Part shown: positions 7,506 to 44,287 of the stretch, in pieces
How positions within the stretch are numbered: position 1 is the stretch's first letter
Layout of the letters: each line of letters begins with the position of its first letter
Source: a virus
Strand: one strand, 5' to 3'
IMG/VR virus record: IMGVR_UViG_3300036785_000582
Location: 1 to 44,287 of that record
Length of the DNA stretch: 44,287 nucleotides
Translations under genes and position numbers: made by a program
The notes under the pieces: model-generated
Databases searched by the model: none
What the model saw: the letters and a program-made list of their open reading frames with translations, nothing else
Told to the model about the DNA's origin: nothing

Positions 7506-10457
7506 TTAAGCGAACACGATGAAGCTGAAGGCGCAGTCGGACGCCGCGCCATTGATACTCGTGACGACCTGGAAGGCCGTCGGGCTAGAAATGTTGACTA
7601 AGATGCCATGCGTTGAGGTTCCTCCTCCTTGACAGGTTGCCTGGACGATATAGGTGGTGTTGGCCATCCCTGGATTTAGGGTGACGTTGTACACGCCGAC
7701 CGAGGCGCGCGACACGCTGGCGTTGGTGATACTGTTCACGCCACCGCCCGACGTGATATTTCCCTTCGCGGCGTAGCCGCTGGGTCCCGCCTTGGCGTAC
7801 ATGCCCACGGGATAGTAAGACCCGGCGTTATTTCCGATCAGAATAACACCTTCGCCGGGGTTCAGGTTCGGAATGCCAGACCCGGCGATGCCGACCTGAC
7901 CCGTAGACCCATTGAATATGATGTAGGTACCCGCGCTCCCCCCGGCGTCGCCCGGCAGAAACACCGTACCGGGGTTGGCCATCCATATCATCTTGCCGGT
8001 ATATCCGGCGTTGGGGTAGCAGTCAGTAGTCGATACGATGAGCGGACCAGCCGTCATACCACGCTGAGATATCGTCGCCATATTCGCTGGGGCGGCCGAA
8101 GTATCAAACGCACTCACGTTTGGAACAGTGGCTGATCCCGTGACGTTCAAAGCGCCAACGGCCAATGAATTGATCGTGACAACGCCGCTGGCGCGGTTGA
8201 TCACCAGCGGCGTATCTATAGGACTGCCGCCCGCGTCGGCGTAGCGATATATCTGGAAGTTGCTCCCGGCGTTCGACCCGCCTTCGTTGCTATTATCGAT
8301 CCCTATCGTCCAGCGGTCTAGGTTACTGGTCCTGAACCGAATGAGTTTGAACTGCTGTCCTGGGCCGGTTATGTCTATCTCAGAGCCCGCCCCGGCGATG
8401 GTGAGAGTAGCCGTGATGGTCACAGGCTGGCTGAACGTCGCCGCGCCCGAGACAGTCAAGGCTTGACTGACCGTCAGCGCATTGCCGAGCGTCACGTTAC
8501 CCGTGAGCCGGTTGATGCTCAGCGGCGTGCCGATCTGCGTGCCGGTGTCCGTGTAGTTTAGTATCGAGAAATTAGACCCCGCGCCGGTTCCATCCTCGGC
8601 GACGCCGTTCATACCCAGCCACCAGCGGACGACGGCGTTCCGCTCAAACCACATGTTGGCGTTGTACGCCCCCGTGGGCGCAGCAAGGACAACATTATTG
8701 TTCTGCGCCTTGAACGTCGCCGTCGTCGCGAAGTTCATTGCACCTGGGAACGTGCCCGCGCCGATGTCTGCGGCGGTGTAGTTGAGAATGGCCTTCGTCT
8801 GACTGGCGTTCATCGGCTCCTGCGGCTGGTTGCCGCCGGAGGAGTTGGGGTTGCCGACGATGGACAGGGGCGGCAGGTTAATGACGCCGCTCGGCCCCTG
8901 CGGGCCGGTGGCCCCGGCGGGACCCTGGGCTCCCTGGGGACCTTGCGGGCCAGAGATGGCCCCCAGGTCCACCCACCCCGGCGCGGCGGCGACGGAAGAC
9001 ACATAGTCCCAAATATGGTTGTTGTTCAGGTACTCTAGGCCACTGCCGATCTGCATCTGATACGGCGCGGTCGGATAACCGCCGCCGAAGAAGCCAGTGG
9101 GTATGAGCCCGTTGACGGGGAGACCGCTCGGCAGCGACGTGAACGTCCCGACAATCGCCGTGCCCGCCGCGCCTTGCGGCCCCTGCGCGCCGGTAGGCCC
9201 TACGGGTCCTTCAGGTCCCGTGGGTCCCGTGAACCCAGGCGCGCCGTCGTCCCCGTCTGCCCCCTGTGGACCCTGAATGCCCTGCGGGCCAGGGATGCCG
9301 GTCGGCCCCTGCGGTCCCCCAGGACCCGTGTTCCCCACAGGTCCGGCCGGTCCGGCTGGACCTGCGGGTCCAGCGAGTTTTCCCAGGTTCTCCCACCCGG
9401 TCGGGCTCACGCCGACCCCGACGTACTCCATGACGTTCTGGGTCTGCCTGTCATACAGCGCCGTCCCCTGCTGCATCTGATACGGTGCGAGCGGGTAAGA
9501 ACCATCGTAGAAGCCGATGGGTATCGTCCCGCCGACCGGCAGCGTCGGCTGCGCAGCAGAGGAATACGAACCGACGATCTGCGTGCCGGTGCCGCCCTGC
9601 GGACCTTGCGGTCCGGCCGGGCCGAGCGGCCCCGTGGGGCCATTGTTCCCGGTAGCCCCTTGAGGGCCCTGCGGCCCCGTGGGACCCTGCGGTCCCGCGT
9701 TGCCGGTCGGCCCGGCGGGTCCCTGGGAGCCGGTGGGGCCGTTCTGCCCCTGCGGCCCGGCCTGCCCCTGCGGGCCTTGTGGCCCGGAGATCGCGCCTAA
9801 GTTGAGCCACCCCGTCACGATAGACGTGATGGACACGTACTCCCACACGACCTGCGTCGAGATCTGGTAGAGAGCCTGCCCGACCTGCATCTGGTAGGGT
9901 GTCAGGGGGTAGGTCCCGTCGAAGAAGCCGATGGGGATGTCACCATTGGCCGGGAGCCCTGCGGACGTGGAGTTGAAACTCCCCACGATAGAGGCGGCGG
10001 CCGCGCCCTGGTTGCCCTTCTGCCCGGCCGGTCCTGCCGGGCCGGTGAGGCCCGTGGGACCCGTGGGTCCCGCCTCTCCGGCTGCGCCGTCGGGGCCTGG
10101 GGGTCCCGAGGGACCGACCGGCCCCATCGGCCCGTCGTAGTTCCGTGTCTGGGCGACGATGGATAGGACCGCGTTGCCCGAGAGGTTTAAGGGGTTAGTG
10201 GAGGCGACGCCTTGGGATATAGATGCGGTGACGTTTCGCGTCAGAGTCTGCGCGGTCTGGTTGTAAACCCCCGAGCCCCACTCGGCGTTGCTCCCGTCCT
10301 CTATCAGGTAGAAGTAGGTGTGGCCGTCCGTGGCCCCAGCCATCGTGAAGTCTTGGTAGGCGAAGGAGTATTTGGGGCCGATGGCGAGCGTTCCCACGCC
10401 GGTGGTCGGGGTGAACGTGCGCACGCGGTCGAGCAGGAATTGGGCGGTGCTGGTCAT
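7506..10457 (-). CDS. Collagen-like tail fibre protein
   Basis: 983 residues. After an N-terminal domain of about 110 residues (start [12 protein letters not shown], likely particle attachment), four Gly-X-Y collagen blocks alternate with three related spacers of about 65 residues, each with a G-x-IVG-(S/T)-(F/Y) start, a PIGFFDG/PTGFFGG/PIGFYDG motif, a PYQMQ motif and a GW(L/E/V)(N/D)LG end. The C-terminal third contains two copies of a beta module ending in TPL-x-INR-x-(T/S)G-x-VT, then a receptor-binding-type tail. Collagen triplets in phage fibres form trimeric rods; this protein probably gives host recognition. The long G+C-rich repeats explain the many false reading frames here. Confidence 0.88.
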
Positions 10458-10465
10458 GGCGTGGG

Positions 10466-12013
10466 CTACCCCGTGAGGGAGTTAGAAGAAGTAAAGGGAC
10501 CGGCGAGGCCGAAGCTGTTGCCAGCCGAGCAACGGACCTGAAACGTGCCTGGAAGATCGGTCGCCTTGACCGTGTAGGTGGGCGACCCCGCGCCGGGGAT
10601 GGCGATGCCGTTCAAATACCACTGATAGTAGTAGGCGGTGGGGATATTGCTCCAGAAACCGGGGTCGACGAGCAGGATAGAACCGGCCACGGGCGGCGTG
10701 GGTCCGCAAGCGTAAGGCAAGACGTTGCACACCGGCTTCTGTGGCGTGGTGGCGACCTGAAGATCGTGGCTGGATATGGCCTGGGAGGCGACGTACAGAG
10801 TCTCAATGTAGCCATCGAGATTAAGCGCGCCGCCCCAGCCGCCGAACCTCTGGGTCGTGACGCCCACGGGGGGCGCGTACAAAGGGGAGGATTGCGGCGG
10901 CAGGCCCATCGTCGTGAACAACGCGTTGGGACCGTGGGCCGTGAACCCCATGATGCAGAAGCCGTTGACGACGCTGGTATTGGGGCCAGTGAAGGATAGA
11001 ACGTTGGCGGCGGCGACGTAGACGCTGATGGCGGCGTCGCCCTGGCTTGGAGCGTTTATCGAGAAGTCGATGGCGTTGTTGCCGACGTTCCCGTCGTTGA
11101 GGGAATGGAATAGACCGCCGGGGTTAGTGGTGGCGGCCGGGGCGACGACGCTGGTGAGTATGGTAACGTCAGGACCTGGGAGCAGACCGGGCGTGTTGAT
11201 GGTGTGACTGTCCTTCGGCCGCGTCACGGCGGCGGTAGTGGTGGGGATGTAGCTGGTGGGTCCGGACTGATTAGGCTGCTGGACCTCAAGCTGCCCTCCC
11301 CAGAACAAGATATCGCAGGCGTTGTCAGTGCCGGTGGTCCCTTGCAGGTAGATCGAGAAGCCGCCGCCGTTGGCGGTGGGGTCAGACGGGGCCGAAAACC
11401 AGAACCGCCGCCATAGCGGCGTCACAGTGAGCAGCGTGCGCTGGCGGTTCAGGACGTTTACGCTGAAACCCACCTTAAAGGACTGGGTGGTGTTGCTCTT
11501 CAGGTAGACCGAGATGATGTCGGTCTCGGCGGGCCGCGTCATGCCCTGCTGGATAAGCACATAGTTGGCCACCAGATTTGTGCCGCCGTTCAGCGTCATT
11601 TGAAACCGCTGAGCCGTGAGGGTCCCATCGGGGGCGGCGGCGAACGCCGGGGTGATGGTGGGAGGAGAGGCGGTGCCGTTGCCGCCCTTGCCCCAGTTGG
11701 CGGTGGTGACGTCCTGGCTCTGCAGGAGCAGGTTGGTGGCCGCCTCCTCCATGAGCAGGCCCCAGGTCGTGATGCGCGGGACGTTCTGAGCAAAGCTCAG
11801 AACCGTGCTGTTGTTGTTCTCCGCCGTACCCGGCCCGCCCGTGTACGCCCAGCCCGGGATGAGGGTGGGATCAGTGTAAGCCGTCCCGTTTAGAGAGTAG
11901 GATTTTTTGGTAAAATCAAGTGAGAGTATGGCGGGGGGCAATGGCTTCGTCAGCCCGCCGCCATAGAGTGCGGGCGTGGGCGCAGGCGGGAACCGAAGGG
12001 AGAGGTCGGGCAT
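10466..12013 (-). CDS. Fibre/spike protein with carbohydrate-binding-like fold
   Basis: 515 residues. The N-terminal part (PPAILSLDFTKKSYSLNGT, then RITTWGLLMEEAATNLLLQS) is the pattern of proteins annotated as phage head-spike-fibre domain proteins. The middle looks like a jelly-roll (residues about 100-260, ending in CDILFWGGQLE), followed by a LamG-like region. The C-terminus (from about 430) is Ig-like, with YYYQWYLNGIAIPGAG and YTVKATDLPGTFQVRCSA. It probably binds surface glycans. It starts next to the stop of the spike-base gene, consistent with assembly of both into the same appendage. Confidence 0.75.
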   Translation of the reverse strand: MPDLSLRFPPAPTPALYGGGLTKPLPPAILSLDFTKKSYSLNGTAYTDPTLIPGWAYTGGPGTAENNNSTVLSFAQNVPRITTWGLLMEEAATNLLLQSQDVTTANWGKGGNGTASPPTITPAFAAAPDGTLTAQRFQMTLNGGTNLVANYVLIQQGMTRPAETDIISVYLKSNTTQSFKVGFSVNVLNRQRTLLTVTPLWRRFWFSAPSDPTANGGGFSIYLQGTTGTDNACDILFWGGQLEVQQPNQSGPTSYIPTTTAAVTRPKDSHTINTPGLLPGPDVTILTSVVAPAATTNPGGLFHSLNDGNVGNNAIDFSINAPSQGDAAISVYVAAANVLSFTGPNTSVVNGFCIMGFTAHGPNALFTTMGLPPQSSPLYAPPVGVTTQRFGGWGGALNLDGYIETLYVASQAISSHDLQVATTPQKPVCNVLPYACGPTPPVAGSILLVDPGFWSNIPTAYYYQWYLNGIAIPGAGSPTYTVKATDLPGTFQVRCSAGNSFGLAGPFTSSNSLTG

Positions 12014-12016
12014 GGG

Positions 12017-12277
12017 TCATGCCCCGGCGAAGGCGACGATGCCGGTGGCCGCCGTGCCTGAGGCGCGCAATTGCGTGAACTGAATGGCGACGGTCGCCCC
12101 GAGGGGTACAGCGGGGAAGGTGACCAGCGCCGGGGGGTATGCGGGGGACCCCACTGTGCGCACGGTGACGTCTCCGGCGCTGCCGCCGACGTAGAACCCT
12201 ACCCCGTTCTGATTGACAGTGTCACTCGGGGATATCGGGAAGGCGTGGAGAGGGACCTGGGTCAGGTTGAAGGCCAT
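12017..12277 (-). CDS. Spike base protein, gene-transfer-agent Rcc01079-like
   Basis: 86 residues with the signature HAFPISPSDTVNQ, then YVGGSAGDVTVRT and a C-terminal LRASGTAATGIVAF. This is the pattern of the small spike-base proteins of Rhodobacter-type gene transfer agents and alphaproteobacterial phages, which anchor head spikes. It is followed immediately by the fibre gene. Its first 56 bases overlap the end of the small-terminase-like gene. Confidence 0.72.
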   Translation of the reverse strand: MAFNLTQVPLHAFPISPSDTVNQNGVGFYVGGSAGDVTVRTVGSPAYPPALVTFPAVPLGATVAIQFTQLRASGTAATGIVAFAGA

Positions 12278-12722
12278 TGCTTTGCATCCTCTGGCGGGCG
12301 GCTAATAGTCTATCCGCGAGATCAAGGGTGACTTTGACCTCGACCGGCTTGAACATGCCCAGGACCTTTCCTGAGAGTTCGAGCGCCTTGAGCTTGTCGG
12401 CCAGACCGACGCGCACGGTGGTCTCGTCCCCTATATGATTGCCCTGGCGGTCGTACATGCGCCGGTGGGTGGATGAGATAGACGCTATGGCGGCGAGTGA
12501 CTCCCGTGACGTAGCGGAGAGGTCGATGGTGGGGGACCCATCCTCGGCTACGCTGATGATGTCGGCGACATTGGACAGCGCCAGCCGGGTCAACTCCGTC
12601 TGAATATGCTCCGGCGTAGCTTCGCGAGAGGGTCCCTCTGCGTAGTACCTCACTTGCGGAGGCGCAGATGGGGGGAGAGGAATACGGGCGAGCTTGTTGG
12701 CCACGGGGGAAGGGTGTAGCAT
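12222..12722 (-). CDS. Small terminase-like protein lacking the DNA-binding N-terminus
   Basis: 166 residues from the ATG at 12722. The segment EATPEHIQTELTRLALSNVAD, then PTIDLSATSRESLAAIASIS and GLADKLKALELSGKVLGMFK, matches the C-terminal half of Terminase_2-type small subunits (oligomerisation and large-subunit contact). The usual N-terminal helix-turn-helix that binds packaging sites is missing. The open frame continues about 89 codons upstream, but that part is not HTH-like. No strong ribosome site is visible, so the start is uncertain. It heads the virion operon, far from the large subunit. Confidence 0.65.
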   Translation of the reverse strand: MLHPSPVANKLARIPLPPSAPPQVRYYAEGPSREATPEHIQTELTRLALSNVADIISVAEDGSPTIDLSATSRESLAAIASISSTHRRMYDRQGNHIGDETTVRVGLADKLKALELSGKVLGMFKPVEVKVTLDLADRLLAARQRMQSNGLQPDPGPSPRLPDIPE

Positions 12723-12987
12723 AGCCGTTCGAAGAATACAATGCAGAGAAAGTAAAAAGTGTGGGCGCGCGGGAGTCTGACTAGGGGGTGGGAGGGGGTA
12801 TACAGTACCCGGCAGCCCTGATACCCCCCCTATACTACCCCCACCCAGTAAAGTTATGGCAGCACAAAGTAATAATGTGGCAACGTCGAGTAAGGCACAG
12901 TACACACAAGGCAACAGCATGTTGTTTGCTTCGTGCAACGCGTGCGTGCGCAAGTGCGACAGGGTGTCGCACCTAGCAGCGGGCAGC

Positions 12988-27658: not shown

Positions 27659-28040
27659 GCGCGAACGTGAGCTAGTCGAGAACCCGGTTCGTCGCCGGGC
27701 GCTCGATGAGCTTGGTGTCCCCAGCGTGAAGCTGAGTTTTCGCGCTGGGGGCGGCACCAGCATGCCCGACGTTCTTTACTTCCTCCCTGGTGGCAAGCCC
27801 TTGCTTCACGAATACAAGTGGGGTACGCTCGACCCCGAGCCAAAGCAAGTTTACACACATCACTGGTTACGAGGACTAGGGTATGACGTCGAAGTCCACA
27901 ACAACGTCGAAGAAGCTCTACAAAGTATTCGCGCAGCCGTGGAAGCCTCACCCCTATATGAAAAAGGGAGTCAAGTGGCTCCTAGAACACGCGGCCGCAG
28001 GCTTGTTCTTAGACCCCGGTCTTGGAAAGACGAGTATTAG
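27639..28040 (+). CDS. VRR-NUC nuclease
   Basis: 133 residues, overlapping the sponge gene by 20 nt. The active site of the PD-(D/E)XK VRR-NUC fold is visible: GGTSMPDVLYF (D44), LLHEYKWG (E58, K60), Q70 in PKQVYTHHWL, and the closing GYDVEVHNNVEEALQSI. Stand-alone VRR-NUC proteins in phages act on structured DNA, for example Holliday junctions. The last 50 or so residues are read from DNA that also encodes the helicase N-terminus. Confidence 0.82.
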   Translation: MRIRRTRRERELVENPVRRRALDELGVPSVKLSFRAGGGTSMPDVLYFLPGGKPLLHEYKWGTLDPEPKQVYTHHWLRGLGYDVEVHNNVEEALQSIRAAVEASPLYEKGSQVAPRTRGRRLVLRPRSWKDEY

Positions 28041-29334
28041 TCTCGCGGCATTCTGTTTCCTGCTCAAGCGCGGAGTGGCGCGCAAGGCGCTGGTGATCGC
28101 CCCCATCCGAGCGGTGTACGACGTGTGGCCCGCCGAGGTAAAGAAGTGGTTGGACTTCAACCATTTGCGACTCGCCATCCTGCATGGGCCGCATAAGGAG
28201 GAAGCCCTGGCCAGCGACGCCGACATATACGTGATCAACCCCGAGGGCATTCCGTGGCTGCTCCAGGGCGGCCCGCGCGCGTGGCGGGCGCTGGGGTTCG
28301 ACACGCTTATCATAGACGAGTTGTCGAAGTGGAAGAACTCCCAGGGCGTGCGCTTCAAGCAATTCAAACATTATCTCGACACCTTCGACCGGCGCTGGGG
28401 GCTCACCGGGTCACCGGCGGCGAACGGTCTGCTCGACCTGTTCGGGCAGATGTACATGCTGGACCTGGGGCGCTCTCTCGGTCGGTATATCACGCACTAC
28501 CGGACAGCGTTCTTTACCAATCCCGACAAGATGGGCTGGAAGTGGGTGCCGATGGCGGGCGGCGCAAAGGAGGCAATCTATGAACGCATCAAGCCGGTGG
28601 CCCTACGCATGGAGGACAAGGACTATCTCGATTTACCGGAAATTGTACCCCTATGGGTCCCGCTTACCCTACCAGCAAAAGTGCGCAAAATCTACGACGC
28701 CCTCGAAGACGACCTTATCGCCCAGATTGAGTCAGGTGTCGTGGTGGCTGCTAACGCGGCTGCGGCGGGAACCAAACTATGGCAGATATGTAATGGCGGG
28801 CTTTATGTGGACGATGATATTGCAACAAAGATCACCGGCCGAACCGCGCGCACGACCCTTCATCTTCATAACGTCAAAACGGATTGGCTATCGGAACTTG
28901 TCGATGAGCTCCAAGGCGAGCCTCTCCTAGTGTGCTACCAGTTCGACCAAGACCTAGACCGGCTGCTGGCGCGCTTTCCCGACACGCCGGTGTTCGGGGC
29001 CAATCGGACCCTAAACACCCAGATACAGAACGAGTGGAACGACAACGAACTCCCGCTAGTGTTCGGCCAGCAGGACAGTATCGCCCACGCTCTTAATTTA
29101 CAAGGCGGCAGCGCCTGTCATATCGCCCACTATAGCCTGACGTGGAACCTCGAGACGTTCGACCAAGTGCTGCGGCGCATTAGAAGGCAAGGAAACACCA
29201 GCGCGCGGGTGTTCCAACACCTACCGTTCATGGTCGGCACCACCGACGAAGACAGACGCTTCGCCCTGCGACATAAAGCCTCGGGCCAGAAAGCTCTCCT
29301 CGATGCATTAAAAAAGCGCCGGGGTGTAAAATAA
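27883..29334 (+). CDS. SNF2-type DEAD/DEAH helicase
   Basis: 483 residues. Motif I is DPGLGKT (44-50), motif II IIDELS (143-148), motif III LTGSP (174-178), and motif VI QVLRRIRRQG (about 428-437), with PHPYMKKGVKWLLE at the N-terminus, as in phage SF2 helicases of the SNF2 group. It probably translocates on DNA during replication or recombination. The ATG at 27883 is the only start that keeps the family N-terminus, forcing a 158-nt out-of-frame overlap with the VRR-NUC gene. Confidence 0.9.
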   Translation: MTSKSTTTSKKLYKVFAQPWKPHPYMKKGVKWLLEHAAAGLFLDPGLGKTSISLAAFCFLLKRGVARKALVIAPIRAVYDVWPAEVKKWLDFNHLRLAILHGPHKEEALASDADIYVINPEGIPWLLQGGPRAWRALGFDTLIIDELSKWKNSQGVRFKQFKHYLDTFDRRWGLTGSPAANGLLDLFGQMYMLDLGRSLGRYITHYRTAFFTNPDKMGWKWVPMAGGAKEAIYERIKPVALRMEDKDYLDLPEIVPLWVPLTLPAKVRKIYDALEDDLIAQIESGVVVAANAAAAGTKLWQICNGGLYVDDDIATKITGRTARTTLHLHNVKTDWLSELVDELQGEPLLVCYQFDQDLDRLLARFPDTPVFGANRTLNTQIQNEWNDNELPLVFGQQDSIAHALNLQGGSACHIAHYSLTWNLETFDQVLRRIRRQGNTSARVFQHLPFMVGTTDEDRRFALRHKASGQKALLDALKKRRGVK

Positions 29335-29371: not shown

Positions 29372-30118
29372 ATGCCCGCCATCCCAAAACCTCCGTTCGT
29401 AGTCCACGACACCGCCGCTTATGCGGGGAGTGGGCTAAAGGCGGCCAAGTATGTCATGACGCGCCGCGTCGATACGTTTCACGTCGGTGTCGGTTACTTT
29501 ATATCCAAGGGTAAGGTGGACATGCTCACGGTCCACGACCGCGATTTCGCATCACGGCGCTACGTCGTCACAACCGACGACGCCGAAAAGTTTGTCAGGG
29601 ACATGGTGTCCCTGGCGAAAACCAAGGGCGGCTCAACCGAGGCGTTCCTTTTACTAGGAGAAAAGAACATGGCTAAACTGTCCCGCAGGCAAGCCGCCGT
29701 CGCACCCGAGCCCGAGCCCGACGAGCCTGAAGAAGAAGCCCCCGCGCCTGCGCCCAAGGGTCGCCGGGGTCGGGTCGCGGCTGCGGCCCCCGAGCCCGAG
29801 CCCGAGCCCGAAGAAGCTCCGACGGCCAAGGCCAAGCGTGGAGCGGCCAAGGCTGTCCGCGCTGCCGCCAAGGTTGCGCCCGCACCCACCGCCAAGAAGG
29901 TGGTGGGCCGGTCGAACATCCCCGACACGGCCAAGATCAAGATCTTGACCAACAAGAAGGAGAACCCGTACCGTCCCGACACCAAGGCGGCGGCGACGTT
30001 CGACCTGATGGTCGAGAGCGCCACGGTCGGCGAATTTCGGGACAACGTGGATACCGACGAACACGATCCCGGTTATCTGCGCTACGCCAGCCGCGACGGC
30101 TACGTGGAGTTTGTCTAA
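29372..30118 (+). CDS. NPY(K/R)P-domain protein with possible internal start
   Basis: 248 residues. The N-terminal domain (1-95) is unrecognised, with HVGVGYFISKGKVDMLTVHD and a helix (DAEKFVRDMVSLAK). A Glu/Pro/Ala/Lys-rich linker (about 101-185) leads to the C-terminal domain NPYRPDTKAAATFDLM (198-213) and DPGYLRYASRDGYVEF, paralogous to the protein at 13039-13533. A strong AGGAG stands 8 nt before an in-frame ATG at 29669, which would give a 149-residue product with the same layout as the 164-residue paralogue. Two products from one gene are therefore likely. Confidence 0.75.
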   Translation: MPAIPKPPFVVHDTAAYAGSGLKAAKYVMTRRVDTFHVGVGYFISKGKVDMLTVHDRDFASRRYVVTTDDAEKFVRDMVSLAKTKGGSTEAFLLLGEKNMAKLSRRQAAVAPEPEPDEPEEEAPAPAPKGRRGRVAAAAPEPEPEPEEAPTAKAKRGAAKAVRAAAKVAPAPTAKKVVGRSNIPDTAKIKILTNKKENPYRPDTKAAATFDLMVESATVGEFRDNVDTDEHDPGYLRYASRDGYVEFV

Positions 30119-30165: not shown

Positions 30166-30909
30166 ATGAACGTATTGGAATTTGGCGACGCCAAGCTGGC
30201 GTTGCAAGACATAGACCCGTTGTACCGGGCGCTCAAGGAAATGAAGTGGCCCAGGCAGAAGCTGTGTGAATACACCCTGGCGTTCGTGAGCTTCGACCAC
30301 GCCGGGCTGGCGTGTTGGGTGTGCGAACATGACAACTTCTGGACTGGCATGACCAACGCCGCTGAGAATAAACTCAGGGGCGCGCCGCGCCGCTACTTCT
30401 TCCCCCGCGTCGCCACGCCCGCCGTGCGCACGCTACGCGACCGCTATGGGTCGGCGAAGACCGCGCTCGACGCCCTGGCAGGCCCCTACGCGCAGGCGGA
30501 GGCCCTGCTGCGCACATGGCCCCACTACGGCCCCACAGCCTGCTTCAAGCTCTGCGACATGGCCGAGCGGGTGTGCGGGGTCAATGTGGACTTCTCAATG
30601 GTGACACCCGAACAGCTTATGTCCAATAAGATGGTCACGAAGGGCGTCTATAAGGCGATGCACAGCCTGGGCGTGGATTCCCCCAACAGTTTGTTCAGGG
30701 CCATGCGCCGTCACCCGTGGCGCACCCTGGCCGGGCCGGGTTTCGACCGGCCCTTGAACATGCAGGAGTTTGAAACAATCTTATGCTACTACTCCCACGA
30801 CGATGGTAAGAACAAACACCTGCCCGGCATGGATATCGAGAACATTTGCGGGGAGCTATTCGGCTGGGGTAAGATAGCGGAGAGGTTGATCAAATGCATA
30901 CGGTCGTGA
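30166..30909 (+). CDS. Amino acid:DNA transferase-like protein (thymine pyrophosphorylase clade)
   Basis: 247 residues matching the ADDT/alpha-glutamyl-putrescinyl thymine pyrophosphorylase pattern: FW (58-59) and RRYFFPR (75-81), a YGPTACFKLCDMAERV helix (121-136), VDF, then EFETILCYYSH (201-211), KHLPGMDI (217-224) and a GWGKIAERL C-terminal helix. In characterised systems this family displaces pyrophosphate from pyrophosphoryl-5-hydroxymethyl-dU in DNA with an amino acid or polyamine. The kinase genes and a TS homologue directly downstream support this role. The substrate (glycine, glutamate, putrescine or other) cannot be told. It follows a terminator. Confidence 0.78.
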   Translation: MNVLEFGDAKLALQDIDPLYRALKEMKWPRQKLCEYTLAFVSFDHAGLACWVCEHDNFWTGMTNAAENKLRGAPRRYFFPRVATPAVRTLRDRYGSAKTALDALAGPYAQAEALLRTWPHYGPTACFKLCDMAERVCGVNVDFSMVTPEQLMSNKMVTKGVYKAMHSLGVDSPNSLFRAMRRHPWRTLAGPGFDRPLNMQEFETILCYYSHDDGKNKHLPGMDIENICGELFGWGKIAERLIKCIRS

Positions 30910-31532
30910 AAATAGCCGGTTGCAGCGGGTCGGGCAAGTCCGATATCATGCGCCACGTCATCGACTTGGCGAAGCTGCGTCCCTACGTCCCTTCTAAAAG
31001 CGTTAAAGTCGAAGCCTATATGGGAACCTACGAAGGCGCGCACGTAACAGTCCTGGGCAGCTACGTGAACCAGTGCGGCGGCATGGATGGCATCCAGGGC
31101 AAGGACATTCGCATCGACCTTATCCGCAAGTATGCGGGTGTTCCCAACTCTATAACCTTCATGGAGGGTCTCATCGTTGGCAAGTGCTATGGCGAGATTG
31201 GTAAGATAAGCGAGGAGGAGAACCAGATGGGGCGCTGGCTCTACGCATGGCTCGACACCCCGTTGGAGGTATGCATATCCCGTGTCATGCAGCGGCGCGT
31301 AGACAAGGGCAACCTGAAGCCCTTCGATCCCGAGCGCACGATGCTGCAGAACTGGAAGACTAGTTTCAGCGCCTACCGTCGCGCGGGCGAAGCGGGCCAT
31401 CCCCAACACCTTATAGACTGGCGGATGTCTTCGAAAGTCGCGGCTCGTAAACTCCTCGCAACAGCACTGGAAATGCACAATGCTCCTCGTAAAAGAGTTG
31501 AACGCGTTCATAAGAGAACGAGAGAAAATTAG
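30894..31532 (+). CDS. P-loop kinase, probable 5-hmdU (DNA) kinase component
   Basis: 212 residues. A P-loop GCSGSGKS (9-16) heads a nucleotide-kinase-like fold with EGLIVGKCYGEIG, WLDTPLEVCISRVMQRR (lid/Arg region) and a Lys/Arg-rich C-terminus. It overlaps the transferase gene by 16 nt and the helical-domain gene by 53 nt. In thymidine-hypermodifying phages a P-loop kinase phosphorylates 5-hydroxymethyl-dU in DNA; another option is a 5-hmdUMP kinase supplying the triphosphate pool. Context favours one of these two. Confidence 0.72.
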   Translation: MHTVVKIAGCSGSGKSDIMRHVIDLAKLRPYVPSKSVKVEAYMGTYEGAHVTVLGSYVNQCGGMDGIQGKDIRIDLIRKYAGVPNSITFMEGLIVGKCYGEIGKISEEENQMGRWLYAWLDTPLEVCISRVMQRRVDKGNLKPFDPERTMLQNWKTSFSAYRRAGEAGHPQHLIDWRMSSKVAARKLLATALEMHNAPRKRVERVHKRTREN

Positions 31533-32292
31533 AAAGCATCACGACAAGGGCGACCCCCGTCCATGGACCGAGGACCCCATACTCTCCACGTACAGGTTCT
31601 GTAACGTACACCGCGAAGATGACAAGGTCACCAAGTGGATCGCCAATCACTGGCGCGGCCCGCACGCCGAGGACGAAGACCTGTGGTTCGCCATGCTGGT
31701 CGCCCGGCTCACAAATCTCCCTACGACGATGACGGCCATCGGCTACCCGGTGCCGTTCACAGCCGAGTTGGTGCGCGGGCGCATGAAACGATTGCGGGAG
31801 ATGGGCGGCCGCGTGTTCAACCCAGCCTACCTCATAGGCACGCAAGGTACAGCAGGGGATAAGGTTGACTTTCTGGTCGACGTGGTATGGGCGAAGATGT
31901 GGGCGGCGCGCCGGGTCATTCGCCCCAGGATGGACGACAAGCTGCAAGACTTCGCTGACCGCCTGCTCCCATTCTTTGGCATGGGCACGTTCATCGTGGG
32001 CCAAATCATCGCCGATGTCAAATACGTTCTGCCCTTGCGCGCCGCCGCCGATTGGCGTAGTTTCGCCCTGTCGGGGCCGGGCTCGCGGCGCGGGTTGAAC
32101 CGCGTGATGGGCCGACCCCCCGCCACCGCATGGAAGGAAGACGTATGGCGTCGCGAGTTGGCGGCGCTGCATCGTAGCATCATACATGAGATGCACGCAC
32201 AGGACTTACAGAATTGCCTGTGCGAGTTTGACAAATACCAGCGTGTTCTTACAGGGGAGGGCACGCCGAAGCAGTTTTATAGGAGGGAATAA
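31480..32292 (+). CDS. 5-hmdU DNA kinase helical-domain (HMUDK_hel) protein
   Basis: 270 residues. FIREREKIRKHH (10-21), PWTEDPIL (28-35) and YRFCNVHREDDKVTKWI (38-54) are the signature of the helical domain associated with 5-hydroxymethyl-dU DNA kinases and related thymine-hypermodification proteins; later FFGMGTFIVGQIIADVKY and GPGSRRGLNRVMG support the match. No P-loop is present, so it probably works with the preceding P-loop kinase as a split enzyme, or is the base-recognition subunit. Its start lies inside the kinase gene, in a different frame. Confidence 0.75.
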   Translation: MLLVKELNAFIREREKIRKHHDKGDPRPWTEDPILSTYRFCNVHREDDKVTKWIANHWRGPHAEDEDLWFAMLVARLTNLPTTMTAIGYPVPFTAELVRGRMKRLREMGGRVFNPAYLIGTQGTAGDKVDFLVDVVWAKMWAARRVIRPRMDDKLQDFADRLLPFFGMGTFIVGQIIADVKYVLPLRAAADWRSFALSGPGSRRGLNRVMGRPPATAWKEDVWRRELAALHRSIIHEMHAQDLQNCLCEFDKYQRVLTGEGTPKQFYRRE

Positions 32293-32373
32293 GTGTGGCG
32301 GAGCATCGTTAACGCTATCTGGGCGTTGGCTGCCTTGGTTCTATTGATCGTTGTTTGGAGGTATACTGAATGA
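32293..32373 (+). CDS. 26-residue single-span membrane peptide
   Basis: A GTG start (32293) sits 5 nt after AGGAGGG and directly after the previous stop; the frame ends in an ATGA overlap with the TS-homologue gene. The product, starting VWRSIVNAIWALAAL, is one hydrophobic helix followed by WRYTE. The perfect ribosome site and both junctions argue for translation. It may couple translation of the next gene, or act at the membrane. Confidence 0.5.
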   Translation: MWRSIVNAIWALAALVLLIVVWRYTE

Positions 32374-33407
32374 GAAACATCGTCGCTGTCAGCGTCAACG
32401 ACGCCCTGGCCGAGGGGCTGGAGCATCTGTATTACTCGGGGTACAAGGAGGAGAGCCGCAACGGTCCTGTCCTTGTATCGGCCGAGCCCGTGTGCACGAC
32501 CTACCAATATCCGCAGAAGCGGGTGCTAATGAGCCCGATGCGCGACGCCAACCCGTTCTTTCATCTTATGGAGAGTCTGTGGATGCTGGCCGGTCGGTGC
32601 GACGTGGCCTGGATTTCACAGTACAACCAGCGGATCGCGTCGTACAGCGACGACGGTAAGTCGTTCCACGGAGCCTATGGCTACAGGTGGCGCAAGCACT
32701 TCGCCTATGACCAAATTGCTACCGTCATATGGGCGTTGAAGAAAGATCGCAACACCCGGCGGGCAGTGCTGGCCATGTGGGACGGCGCGCCCAACGTGGA
32801 CCTAGGCAGAGACAGCAAGGACATCCCATGTAACACTCACGCGTACTTCGACACCCTCGGCGGGGGCCTCAACATGACGGTGATGTGCCGGTCCAACGAC
32901 ATGTGGTGGGGCGCGCACGGAGCCAACGCCGTGCACTTCAGCTTCCTACTTGAGTACATGAGCGCCATGACCGGCCTGCCGATGGGTCATCTTCGTCAGT
33001 TCTCGAATAACTACCACCTGTATCTCGACGTGGTAGACACGCGCAAGCTGCCCGAGATCGCCGCCGATGTCATACATCACGATCCTTACACCGAGGGACT
33101 GGGCGGTTCGCGCTTTCACCAGAGGCGGGTGCTGCACCCCGGCCCAGCCTGGGTGTCCTTGGTCAACGACCCTGAAACCTTCCCTGTCGACTTGGCGGTG
33201 TTCATGGAAGAGCCAACCACCACGGACGTGTTCGAGAACAACCCGTTCTTCACCAAGGTCGCCGGGCCGATGGCGCGGGCATGGGCCGCCCATAAGGCCA
33301 AGGACTATGGACAGGCCCAGAACATGGTCGACTTGATTGTCTCCCAGGACTGGCGTAAAGCCTGTGGTGAGTGGATACAACGCCGGAGGGGACATGTCGC
33401 TGGATAA
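32370..33407 (+). CDS. Thymidylate synthase homologue, probable dUMP hydroxymethylase
   Basis: 345 residues. The catalytic cysteine is in DIPCNTHAYFD (C154), followed by NMTVMCRSNDMWWGAHGANAVHFS (dUMP-binding region, with R and N residues) and NNYHLYLD. RVLMSPMRDANPFFHLMESLWMLAGR is the typical N-terminal motif of phage TS/hydroxymethylase enzymes. These enzymes transfer a one-carbon unit from methylene-tetrahydrofolate to dUMP, giving dTMP or 5-hydroxymethyl-dUMP. Next to transferase and HMUDK genes, the hydroxymethylase activity is the more likely; sequence reading alone cannot exclude ordinary TS. Confidence 0.85.
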   Translation: MRNIVAVSVNDALAEGLEHLYYSGYKEESRNGPVLVSAEPVCTTYQYPQKRVLMSPMRDANPFFHLMESLWMLAGRCDVAWISQYNQRIASYSDDGKSFHGAYGYRWRKHFAYDQIATVIWALKKDRNTRRAVLAMWDGAPNVDLGRDSKDIPCNTHAYFDTLGGGLNMTVMCRSNDMWWGAHGANAVHFSFLLEYMSAMTGLPMGHLRQFSNNYHLYLDVVDTRKLPEIAADVIHHDPYTEGLGGSRFHQRRVLHPGPAWVSLVNDPETFPVDLAVFMEEPTTTDVFENNPFFTKVAGPMARAWAAHKAKDYGQAQNMVDLIVSQDWRKACGEWIQRRRGHVAG

Positions 33408-33921
33408 CAAACTGGACTTTATAGTGGCGGCCGGAGGCACCAAGCGTTATCACACATGGCCGCCGACCATCAAGACGCAAACCGTGGCCGAGCATTCCTG
33501 GCGCGTGGCCATGCTGGTCAATCTTGTCGGCCCATCGTTCGGCATGATGATCATGGGTGCGCTGGAACACGACATGGCCGAGTGCAAGGTGGGGGACCTG
33601 CCCGCGCCCGGCAAGCGCCAGCCGGGGTTCGACCGCGCCGGGTGGAACGCCATGGAGCATAGTGTCTTAGAACAGAACGGCTACGGCATCGCCACCAATC
33701 TTCTAAGCACTGAAGAACGGCGCATCGTCAAACTGTGTGACAACTGCGAGGGCGCTCTCTTTTGCATAGATGAGCGCATGCTAGGAAACCTGCGCATCTA
33801 CGAAGTGTTCGCCAACTTCAGGTCATATATTCCTGAAGTGTTGAATCCCAACCACATCCTCGAAGTCGAGCTTGTGGCCTACATCGATAGAAAATGGAGT
33901 GAAGCCAATGTCAGCAAATGA
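33394..33921 (+). CDS. HD-domain 5'-deoxynucleotidase, YfbR-like
   Basis: 175 residues from the ATG at 33394, preceded by GGAGGGG (14-nt overlap with the TS homologue). TVAEHSWRVAML (H34), then ALEHDMAE (H59, D60), and a KLCDNCEGALFC helix follow the YfbR/HD_3 pattern of enzymes that remove phosphate from deoxynucleoside monophosphates. Next to a dUMP-modifying enzyme, it may hydrolyse dTMP or dNMPs to favour the modified pool; that is inference. Confidence 0.8.
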   Translation: MSLDNKLDFIVAAGGTKRYHTWPPTIKTQTVAEHSWRVAMLVNLVGPSFGMMIMGALEHDMAECKVGDLPAPGKRQPGFDRAGWNAMEHSVLEQNGYGIATNLLSTEERRIVKLCDNCEGALFCIDERMLGNLRIYEVFANFRSYIPEVLNPNHILEVELVAYIDRKWSEANVSK

Positions 33922-34183
33922 TCATCAGGTCGGTGGCGACCACTATAAGGAAGTTCAATGGGCGGGCGAGTCCATCGAGCCTTGGGACGTTGTGCACATC
34001 TTCGGCCTGGGCTATCTCGACGGCAACGCCGTGCGGTATCTCCTGCGCTGGCGACGCAAGGGCAAGAGCGGCGTCATAGACTTGGCCAAGGCCGCTCACT
34101 ACATCGAGAAGCTTATCGAACAAGAGCGCGACAACGCCGAGATAAAAGAAGGTGCGCAGCGCCCGGCGCACGGCGAGGACTAA
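33908..34183 (+). CDS. DUF3310 protein
   Basis: 91 residues from the ATG at 33908 (GGAG upstream; 14-nt overlap). VGGDHYKEVQWAGES, PWDVVHIFGLGYLDGNAVRYL, LRWRRKGK and DLAKAAHYIEKLI are the complete DUF3310 signature, a small protein common in phage nucleotide-metabolism regions. It is the last gene of the rightward operon. Confidence 0.88.
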   Translation: MSANDHQVGGDHYKEVQWAGESIEPWDVVHIFGLGYLDGNAVRYLLRWRRKGKSGVIDLAKAAHYIEKLIEQERDNAEIKEGAQRPAHGED

Positions 34184-43978: not shown

Positions 43979-44287
43979 TTACGGTTGCGGGCTGTAGGTC
44001 GGCATCACGAAGGTGCCGAAATCGTAGGCGTTGAAGGTGGTCTTCTTCATGCCGGCGATCAGGCCCGCGGACACGCCGAGTTGGTTGTTGTAGTCGAAGA
44101 GTTCTTCGACCCACTTCACCTTCTCGGGGGTGCCCTCGTCGCGGCCGGTGGCGATGGTCGCCGCCTGCGCCCCGGCGAGGACAGCCCGTCGTACGTTGGC
44201 GATGGAGTTGTTGTTGGAATTGTTGACGCCCATCGTGACACGGGTACTTTCGTGCATCACGACTTGGTTGTAGATGCACGAAAGTAC
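43979..44287 (-). CDS. Major capsid protein (C-terminal part, continues at 925-1)
   Basis: The C-terminal 57 codons plus stop lie at 44151-43979; bases 44152-44277 repeat the start of the window. The region reads HESTRVTMGVNNSNNNS, AQAATIATGRDEGTPEKVKW and EELFDYNNQLGVSAGLIAGMKK, ending YSPQP; the DYNNQLGVSAGLIAGMKK stretch is typical of the end of N4-gp56 capsid proteins. Bases 44278-44287 are artefactual and not part of the gene. Confidence 0.9.
   Translation of the reverse strand, partial: VLSCIYNQVVMHESTRVTMGVNNSNNNSIANVRRAVLAGAQAATIATGRDEGTPEKVKWVEELFDYNNQLGVSAGLIAGMKKTTFNAYDFGTFVMPTYSPQP
44152..44277. repeat. Terminal direct repeat (assembly overlap), right copy
   Basis: Identical to 1-126. 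Joining the copies restores one continuous capsid gene of 366 codons including the stop, which shows the molecule was circular in the assembly graph. Confidence 0.95.
44244..44287. repeat. Fold-back end: 14-bp inverted repeat at contig tip
   Basis: The last 14 bases (ATGCACGAAAGTAC) are the exact reverse complement of 44244-44257. In the intact sequence only GCATC/GATGC would pair here; the extra 10 bases look like a strand-switch at that 5-bp microhomology, an amplification or assembly artefact. Confidence 0.8.

Follow-up and report, generated by a model that had tools for sequence, protein, structure and literature searches.

A predicted thymidine-hypermodification island whose decorating genes appear exchangeable on a constant core

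What base does a phage make when it carries genes for attaching an amino acid to thymine in DNA but no recognisable enzyme for elaborating the adduct, and which parts of such a system stay fixed among its relatives? The question is raised by IMG/VR record IMGVR_UViG_3300036785_000582 (59.8% G+C), which we analysed over its whole length of 44,287 bp, hereafter the window. It holds an island of five genes, encoding an amino acid:DNA transferase (AADT), a P-loop kinase, a protein of the HMUDK_hel (aGPT-PPlase1) family, here called HEL, a thymidylate synthase (TS)-family protein, and an HD-domain nucleotidase (Table 1). Hypermodified thymidine influences which host defences (restriction, nucleases, DNA sensing) a phage is able to evade, and its production by these families is said to have been established by Lee et al. 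in 2018 and 2022.

In our judgment, the island very probably makes hypermodified thymidine, with AADT and kinase exchangeable on a constant core of HEL, hydroxymethylase, and HD nucleotidase. A preliminary description made from the sequence had proposed a thymidine-hypermodification island here, and all five open reading frames (ORFs) are present, with families and order of the M6/PaMx11 type. This arrangement is found again in M6, PaMx11, Sonora, Pam3, and many IMG/VR contigs; the gene set therefore lies far beyond chance. Profile searches, named beforehand as a way in which the proposal might fail, placed neither the transferase nor the helical protein in an unrelated family. The four genes then described as consecutive and overlapping do overlap between AADT and kinase (16 nt) and between kinase and HEL (53 nt), but HEL and TS lie 77 nt apart. 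TS and HD overlap by 14 nt, with the ATG at 33394 preferable to the TTG at 33337 as the HD start.

Table 1. Predicted genes of the island and its flanks, with the gene that takes the place of AADT and kinase in two relatives (L171 and L172)
Feature	Coordinates	Strand	Length	Marks and matches
SNF2-type helicase, left anchor of the conserved locus	27883..29334	+		PF00176 9e-15; 89% (L171) and 80% (L172) identity
Uncharacterised Pro/Ala/Glu-rich protein (UP), interval between helicase and decorating cassette	29372..30118	+		syntenic homologues in L171, L172
AADT, amino acid:5-(phosphomethyl)dU-DNA transferase (predicted), divergent clade	30166..30909	+	247 aa	PF18724, phrog_6364, PDB 8z2m
P-loop 5-hmdU DNA kinase (predicted)	30894..31532	+	212 aa	Walker A GCSGSGKS; phrog_800, PF18748
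HEL (HMUDK_hel / aGPT-PPlase1), predicted base-flipping partner with DNA-glycosylase fold	31480..32292	+	270 aa	PF18723
TS-family dUMP 5-hydroxymethylase (predicted)	32370..33407	+	345 aa	catalytic C154, uracil-type N186; PF00303, phrog_5131
HD-domain nucleotidase, predicted to clear dTMP/dTTP or a related nucleotide	33394..33921	+	175 aa	HD_3, YfbR-like, DatZ 6zpa
DUF3310 protein, right anchor of the conserved locus	33872..34183	+		PF11753 6e-5; also in L171, L172
X, GT-B glycosyltransferase (predicted)	L171:5121-6173; L172:2879-3877		~350 aa	one gene

What is exchanged can be seen in the closest relatives of the window. A portal search found two, 89% and 82% identical, which by this measure belong to the same phage genus. 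The most similar hydroxymethylases lie on the contigs L171 (65% identity; metagenome 3300036785) and L172 (60%; 3300031912), from the same two metagenomes as the portal relatives, so we infer that each portal contig and its L171 or L172 counterpart are one phage. Both contigs have the order helicase, UP, X, HEL, TS, HD, DUF3310, shared with the window except that X stands where the window has AADT and kinase; tblastn found neither of these in L171 or L172 (E > 0.3). Compared with L171, the DNA of the window is 80% identical up to ~29,755 and 73% from 31,555 onward, with just one 41-bp piece, in UP, between them; homology on both flanks breaks off at AADT-kinase. X has no relative in Pfam, in PHROG, or, at the level of sequence, in PDB. 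Its model (pLDDT 79, pTM 0.81, from seven sequences) has a GT-B glycosyltransferase fold, and the fold matches at E < 1e-6 are glycosyltransferases, including T4 DNA alpha-glucosyltransferase (1xv5, 1ya6). In the two closest relatives, one GT-B glycosyltransferase replaces AADT and kinase while HEL, hydroxymethylase, and HD remain; going by the modelled fold, these phages probably glycosylate 5-hydroxymethyldeoxyuridine (5-hmdU). The window and these relatives are near neighbours set apart almost entirely by the decorating cassette at this one locus, which makes them a natural experiment on the purpose of the decoration. X represents a new GT-B family, with relatives in L243, L149, L096, L097, and L122.

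Does the exchange extend beyond these phages? Loci were fetched with AADT, HEL, and TS, giving a sample in which relatives of the window are over-represented and whose proportions are not those of nature, and HELs were made non-redundant at 80% identity (n = 156). The writers nearby were kinase/AADT only for 84 HELs, a glycosyltransferase only for 58, both for 2, and neither for 12, several of which sit at contig ends. Kinase matches were counted even if they overlapped the HEL ORF (an extended HEL ORF overlaps the kinase in M6-like loci), and separate profiles were used for TAGT glycosyltransferases and for radical-SAM/SPASM proteins, which a fusion protein links. Kinase and glycosyltransferase all but exclude each other (Fisher p 4e-28, uncorrected for kinship). 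On the HEL tree, where the window clusters with L171 and L172 (support 100), at least 20 changes between the kinase and glycosyltransferase states are required, and each label must have been gained or lost 12-14 times on branches with good support. The unassigned neighbours of HEL proved to be TAGT glycosyltransferases (PF20691, E down to 4e-27) and further GT-B-like families, among which GTB7 is weakly supported (Glyco_transf_4 0.046) and GTB6 was assigned by reading of the sequence. A constant core that makes and presents 5-hmdU, joined by exchangeable decorating cassettes, is thus the likely arrangement.

Several loci of the survey are of interest in themselves. The fusion protein (L237:3324-5060), whose neighbours are HEL and TS, joins TAGT to a radical-SAM/SPASM domain, and a radical-SAM gene of this sort is nearby in about one quarter of the glycosyltransferase-type HEL loci. 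AADT, kinase, HEL, TAGT, radical-SAM/SPASM genes, and TS-HD stand in one cluster at L042:6998-13779, the product of which, judged from its genes, is possibly an amino-acid-sugar thymidine. Some 17 non-redundant loci have kinase-HEL-TS-HD with no recognisable AADT (e.g., L092:6225-6989, L133, L124, L136, and L101); these may end at phosphorylated 5-hmdU or employ some other transferase.

What would HEL contribute to both kinds of writer? It had been described as an HMUDK-type helical protein, and the family assignment stands: HEL matches PF18723 at 2e-34, above the Pfam cut-off, belongs with the HMUDK_hel / aGPT-PPlase1 proteins of M6/PaMx11-type islands, and retains 27 of 27 sites conserved in at least 90% of homologues. 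The tie to a kinase does not, given the 58 HELs with a glycosyltransferase only and two podoviruses that have kinase systems without HEL. Its AlphaFold2 model (pLDDT 95) finds its best fold matches in SsOgg, OGG1, and AlkA, which are helix-hairpin-helix DNA glycosylases, and in glycinyltransferase 8z2m/8z2n, and a DNA-glycosylase-like fold is predicted. HEL is absent from Rhodoferax phage P26218 and, within the regions searched, from podovirus ctfPj964 (AADT, kinase, TS, HD) and ctUhy936 (TAGT, TS, HD), for which reason an accessory factor that presents the base or chooses the site fits better than a catalytic subunit. We give an even chance to the wider proposal that HEL is a general presenter of 5-hmdU with a DNA-glycosylase fold, serving unrelated decorators, such that close relatives exchange amino acid for sugar. 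If so, the family name and automatic annotation mislead, and many phages described as "M6-like" carry glycosylated thymidine. No description of HEL as common to kinase and glycosyltransferase systems was found in the literature searched; other papers may have one.

The remaining core genes point to the supply of the precursor. TS matches PF00303 (9e-20) and phrog_5131 (1.6e-105), and has 60 of the 61 residues that at least 90% of homologues share. C154, singled out beforehand as catalytic, is invariant across 210 homologues. N186 aligns with the Asn of E. coli TS and the Asp of the CMP hydroxymethylase MilA, and this position, which we take to discriminate uracil from cytosine, is Asn in all aligned homologues, in kinase and glycosyltransferase loci alike. 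Catalytic Cys and uracil-type Asn together place the protein with the TS-family hydroxymethylases of M6/PaMx11-type islands. The HD protein (HD_3 9e-9; YfbR-like 4e-8; best solved relative DatZ 6zpa, 9.5e-6) is a constant neighbour in both kinds of locus. A 2-aminoadenine (Z) genome, which a DatZ-like HD might bring to mind, was rejected: the annotated ORFs were found to include no synthetase-type gene, and HD is part of the M6-type neighbourhood.

We propose the following pathway. The TS homologue would convert dUMP to 5-hydroxymethyl-dUMP while the HD nucleotidase, to judge by its family, lowers competing thymidine nucleotides, and the phage polymerase would incorporate 5-hmdUTP. HEL would bind DNA and flip out or present 5-hmdU, and the kinase would phosphorylate its 5-hydroxymethyl group. 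AADT, by the example of its solved homologue 8z2m, would displace the phosphate with an amino acid to give an N-linked amino-acid thymidine. Part of the phage thymine would in this manner be replaced by amino-acid-bearing thymine, the likely benefit being resistance to host nucleases and the hiding of DNA from host enzymes.

How well do the two decorating genes fit their steps? The kinase matches phrog_800 at 2e-17, the PHROG that also contains M6 gp54 and PaMx11 gp49, and PF18748 at just 0.014; its P-loop is intact and it retains 12 of 12 sites conserved in at least 90% of 116 homologues. PHROG and P-loop place it with the 5-hmdU DNA kinases of M6/PaMx11-type islands, though it falls under the PF18748 cut-off. 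The label that phrog_800 carries, terminase small subunit, was rejected, since the family is one of P-loop kinases mislabelled through Yuavirus annotation; the label has spread across many Pseudomonas and Bordetella phage records. AADT belongs with the amino acid:DNA transferases of these islands (phrog_6364 1e-30; PDB 8z2m 5e-17; PF18724 7e-4, under the Pfam cut-off). Its closest solved relative, 8z2m/8z2n, is PaMx11 gp46/PUGT, deposited as a 5-phosphomethyl-2'-deoxyuridine glycinyltransferase, and phosphate rather than pyrophosphate is therefore the better model of the leaving group here. By analogy with this nearest characterised system, in which the kinase would yield a phosphate monoester and the transferase swap the phosphate for glycine, the leaving group in the window is probably phosphate. 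Pyrophosphate chemistry is that of phiW-14 and SP10; the preliminary description had assumed it, and on this step phosphorylation fits better.

Would the adduct be elaborated further? A six-frame profile search of the whole record found no match to radical-SAM (PF04055), FAD-oxidoreductase (DAO, PF01266), pyridoxal phosphate (PLP)-enzyme (PALP, PF00291), acetyltransferase (PF00583), or TAGT profiles; profiles made from known tailoring enzymes had no match in the record, and Pfam scans of ten forward-strand early genes, mostly unannotated, found no tailoring gene. These searches bear out the earlier remark that PLP, radical-SAM, and acetyltransferase genes are missing, extend it to FAD oxidoreductase, and led us to reject the idea that a complete tailoring pathway lies in another part of the genome. 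Having neither radical-SAM/PLP enzymes nor an FAD oxidoreductase with or without acetyltransferase, the window is filed as an untailored variant, not as the M6 or PaMx11 pathway. As no tailoring gene was found, the N-linked adduct would probably be the final base; from gene content, an untailored amino-acid or amine adduct is plausible, as is the simple amino-acid adduct suggested beforehand.

The base might more specifically be N-alpha-glycinylthymidine, with AADT an orthologue of the PaMx11/M6 glycine transferase that lost its downstream enzymes. The best solved relative is indeed a glycinyltransferase, and taking FAD oxidoreductase and acetyltransferase out of the PaMx11 island leaves the one seen here, but the AADT tree makes glycine a tentative candidate that we are inclined to doubt. 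The window AADT lies outside the tailored-pathway clades, which include the PaMx11 gp46/PUGT kind. Its sole near relative (42-43% identity, clade support 99-100) comes from the phage contig L161, which has AADT-kinase-HEL-TS-HD and likewise no tailoring-enzyme homologue; the two form a long-branched clade with common changes that include GPT for GPW and CYYSH for CKWKS. (Peptide patterns from the window AADT alone had no match in IMG/VR, and relatives were sought by alignments in their place.) Untailored AADTs fall into several deep clades, lying apart from most of those with radical-SAM or FAD partners, one including phiW-14, whose adduct is putrescine, and another P26218; their repeated occurrence suggests other nucleophiles. 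Of 40 near-invariant family sites, 25 are retained and 15 altered, and with this clade position neither glycine nor any particular amino acid is therefore to be assumed; untailored AADTs would tend to add the final group directly, glycine being one candidate. The altered sites could also mean that AADT is inactive or otherwise employed and that the product is phosphorylated 5-hmdU or 5-hmdU, and in the AADT-less kinase loci phosphorylation seems to occur with no known transferase. We think this quite unlikely: the changes are partly common to the independent phage L161, which speaks for a maintained subfamily rather than decay, the reading frame is unbroken and extends into that of the kinase, and D15, D17, R75, R76, K128, D131, Q200, E201, and E203 are retained.

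HEL, for its part, might be a catalytic component of the kinase, or else a pyrophosphorylase, as the Pfam/InterPro names HMUDK_hel and aGPT-PPlase1 and its place directly beside the kinase in most kinase loci would suggest, and HEL-glycosyltransferase loci would then be mixed pathways. This is unlikely given that the 58 glycosyltransferase-type HELs have no kinase/AADT homologue nearby, that both writers occur with only 2, that near-invariant HEL residues are retained family-wide, glycosyltransferase loci included, and that P26218 has kinase and AADT with no HEL. Very improbable is an ordinary thymidylate synthase amid a remnant of other genes; fold and catalytic Cys are common to true thymidylate synthases, but the best solved match is the pyrimidine hydroxymethylase MilA (7e-16, vs 2e-9 for E. 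coli TS), phrog_5131 is the M6-type TS family and always adjoins modification genes, and all island genes are intact. Some points do weigh against the pathway that we prefer. A tailoring enzyme of an unfamiliar family could hide among unannotated ORFs; with 15 sites altered, the substrate and even the activity of AADT could differ; the PF18748 and PF18724 scores lie under Pfam cut-offs; the HEL fold matches are weak by E-value (0.05-0.7), though probabilities reach 1.0 for the best; and P26218, searched over its whole genome, is otherwise alike in AADT-kinase-TS-HD, so that a presenting role for HEL is not universal.

The genome around the island differs from those of M6 and PaMx11 in its packaging genes. 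Replication functions are encoded in the forward block (12.8-34.2 kb), namely an AAA ATPase, a primase, DNA polymerase I, exonucleases, and the SNF2 helicase; the reverse blocks encode portal, terminase, and tail proteins. The terminase is ~37% identical to that of the podovirus-like Pseudomonas phage AF, and the packaging genes therefore place the phage outside the Mesyanzhinovviridae (M6, PaMx11), despite common modification genes; no DNA-level relative was found among 50,697 phage records. The left-end 126 bp are repeated exactly at 44,152-44,277, with 10 extra bases after, and the genome, ~44.15 kb, looks complete, either circularly permuted or terminally repeated. IMG/VR labels it linear, the exact end repeat being spoiled by the last 10 bases; the overlap may be an assembler artefact of k-mer size, and closure is implied either way. 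The terminal stretch 44152-44287 also contains a 15-bp inverted repeat, GTACTTTCGTGCATC. UP had no family match in profile searches; similar low-complexity proteins with a conserved C-terminus occupy the same place in L171, L172, and L161 (L161:3461-4252).

How does the island compare with known systems? That of PaMx11 comprises gp46 glycinyltransferase/PUGT, gp47 FAD oxidoreductase, gp48 acetyltransferase, gp49 kinase, gp50 HEL, gp51 hydroxymethylase, and gp52 HD. The window has the counterparts of gp46 and gp49-gp52 in identical order, without the oxidoreductase and acetyltransferase, and its AADT is only ~27-30% identical (247 vs 292 aa), with near-invariant sites altered. M6, which makes 5-(2-aminoethyl)dU (gp51-gp59), likewise matches in order (AADT gp51, kinase gp54, HEL gp55, TS gp58, HD gp59); the window lacks the PLP enzyme gp52, the radical-SAM protein gp53, and Nmad5 gp56. 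Rhodoferax phage P26218 (L256, locus 9773-12780), a cultured podovirus and good subject for nucleoside analysis, and ctfPj964 resemble it as small podoviruses with helicase-AADT-kinase-TS-HD in which no tailoring genes were found. They differ in having no HEL and an AADT of another untailored clade, and their portal, terminase, and polymerase have no detectable similarity to those of the window.

Other systems lie on the glycosyltransferase side. In Brevibacterium phage LuckyBarnes, the neighbouring genes gp38-gp41 encode TS, two TAGT glycosyltransferases, and HEL, with no kinase/AADT; the phage is a cultured test case for the pairing of HEL with glycosyltransferases. The hypermodifications of M6, ViI, and phiW-14 have been summarised (PMC6449724). 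A 2022 paper on pelagiphages observed that TS, aG/PT-PPlase1 (HEL), HD, and a glucosyltransferase lie together, and read this as M6-like, not as an alternative writer (PMC9599517); those regions pair TS and aG/PT-PPlase1 with a glucosyltransferase and have no kinase/AADT, whereas the window has both.

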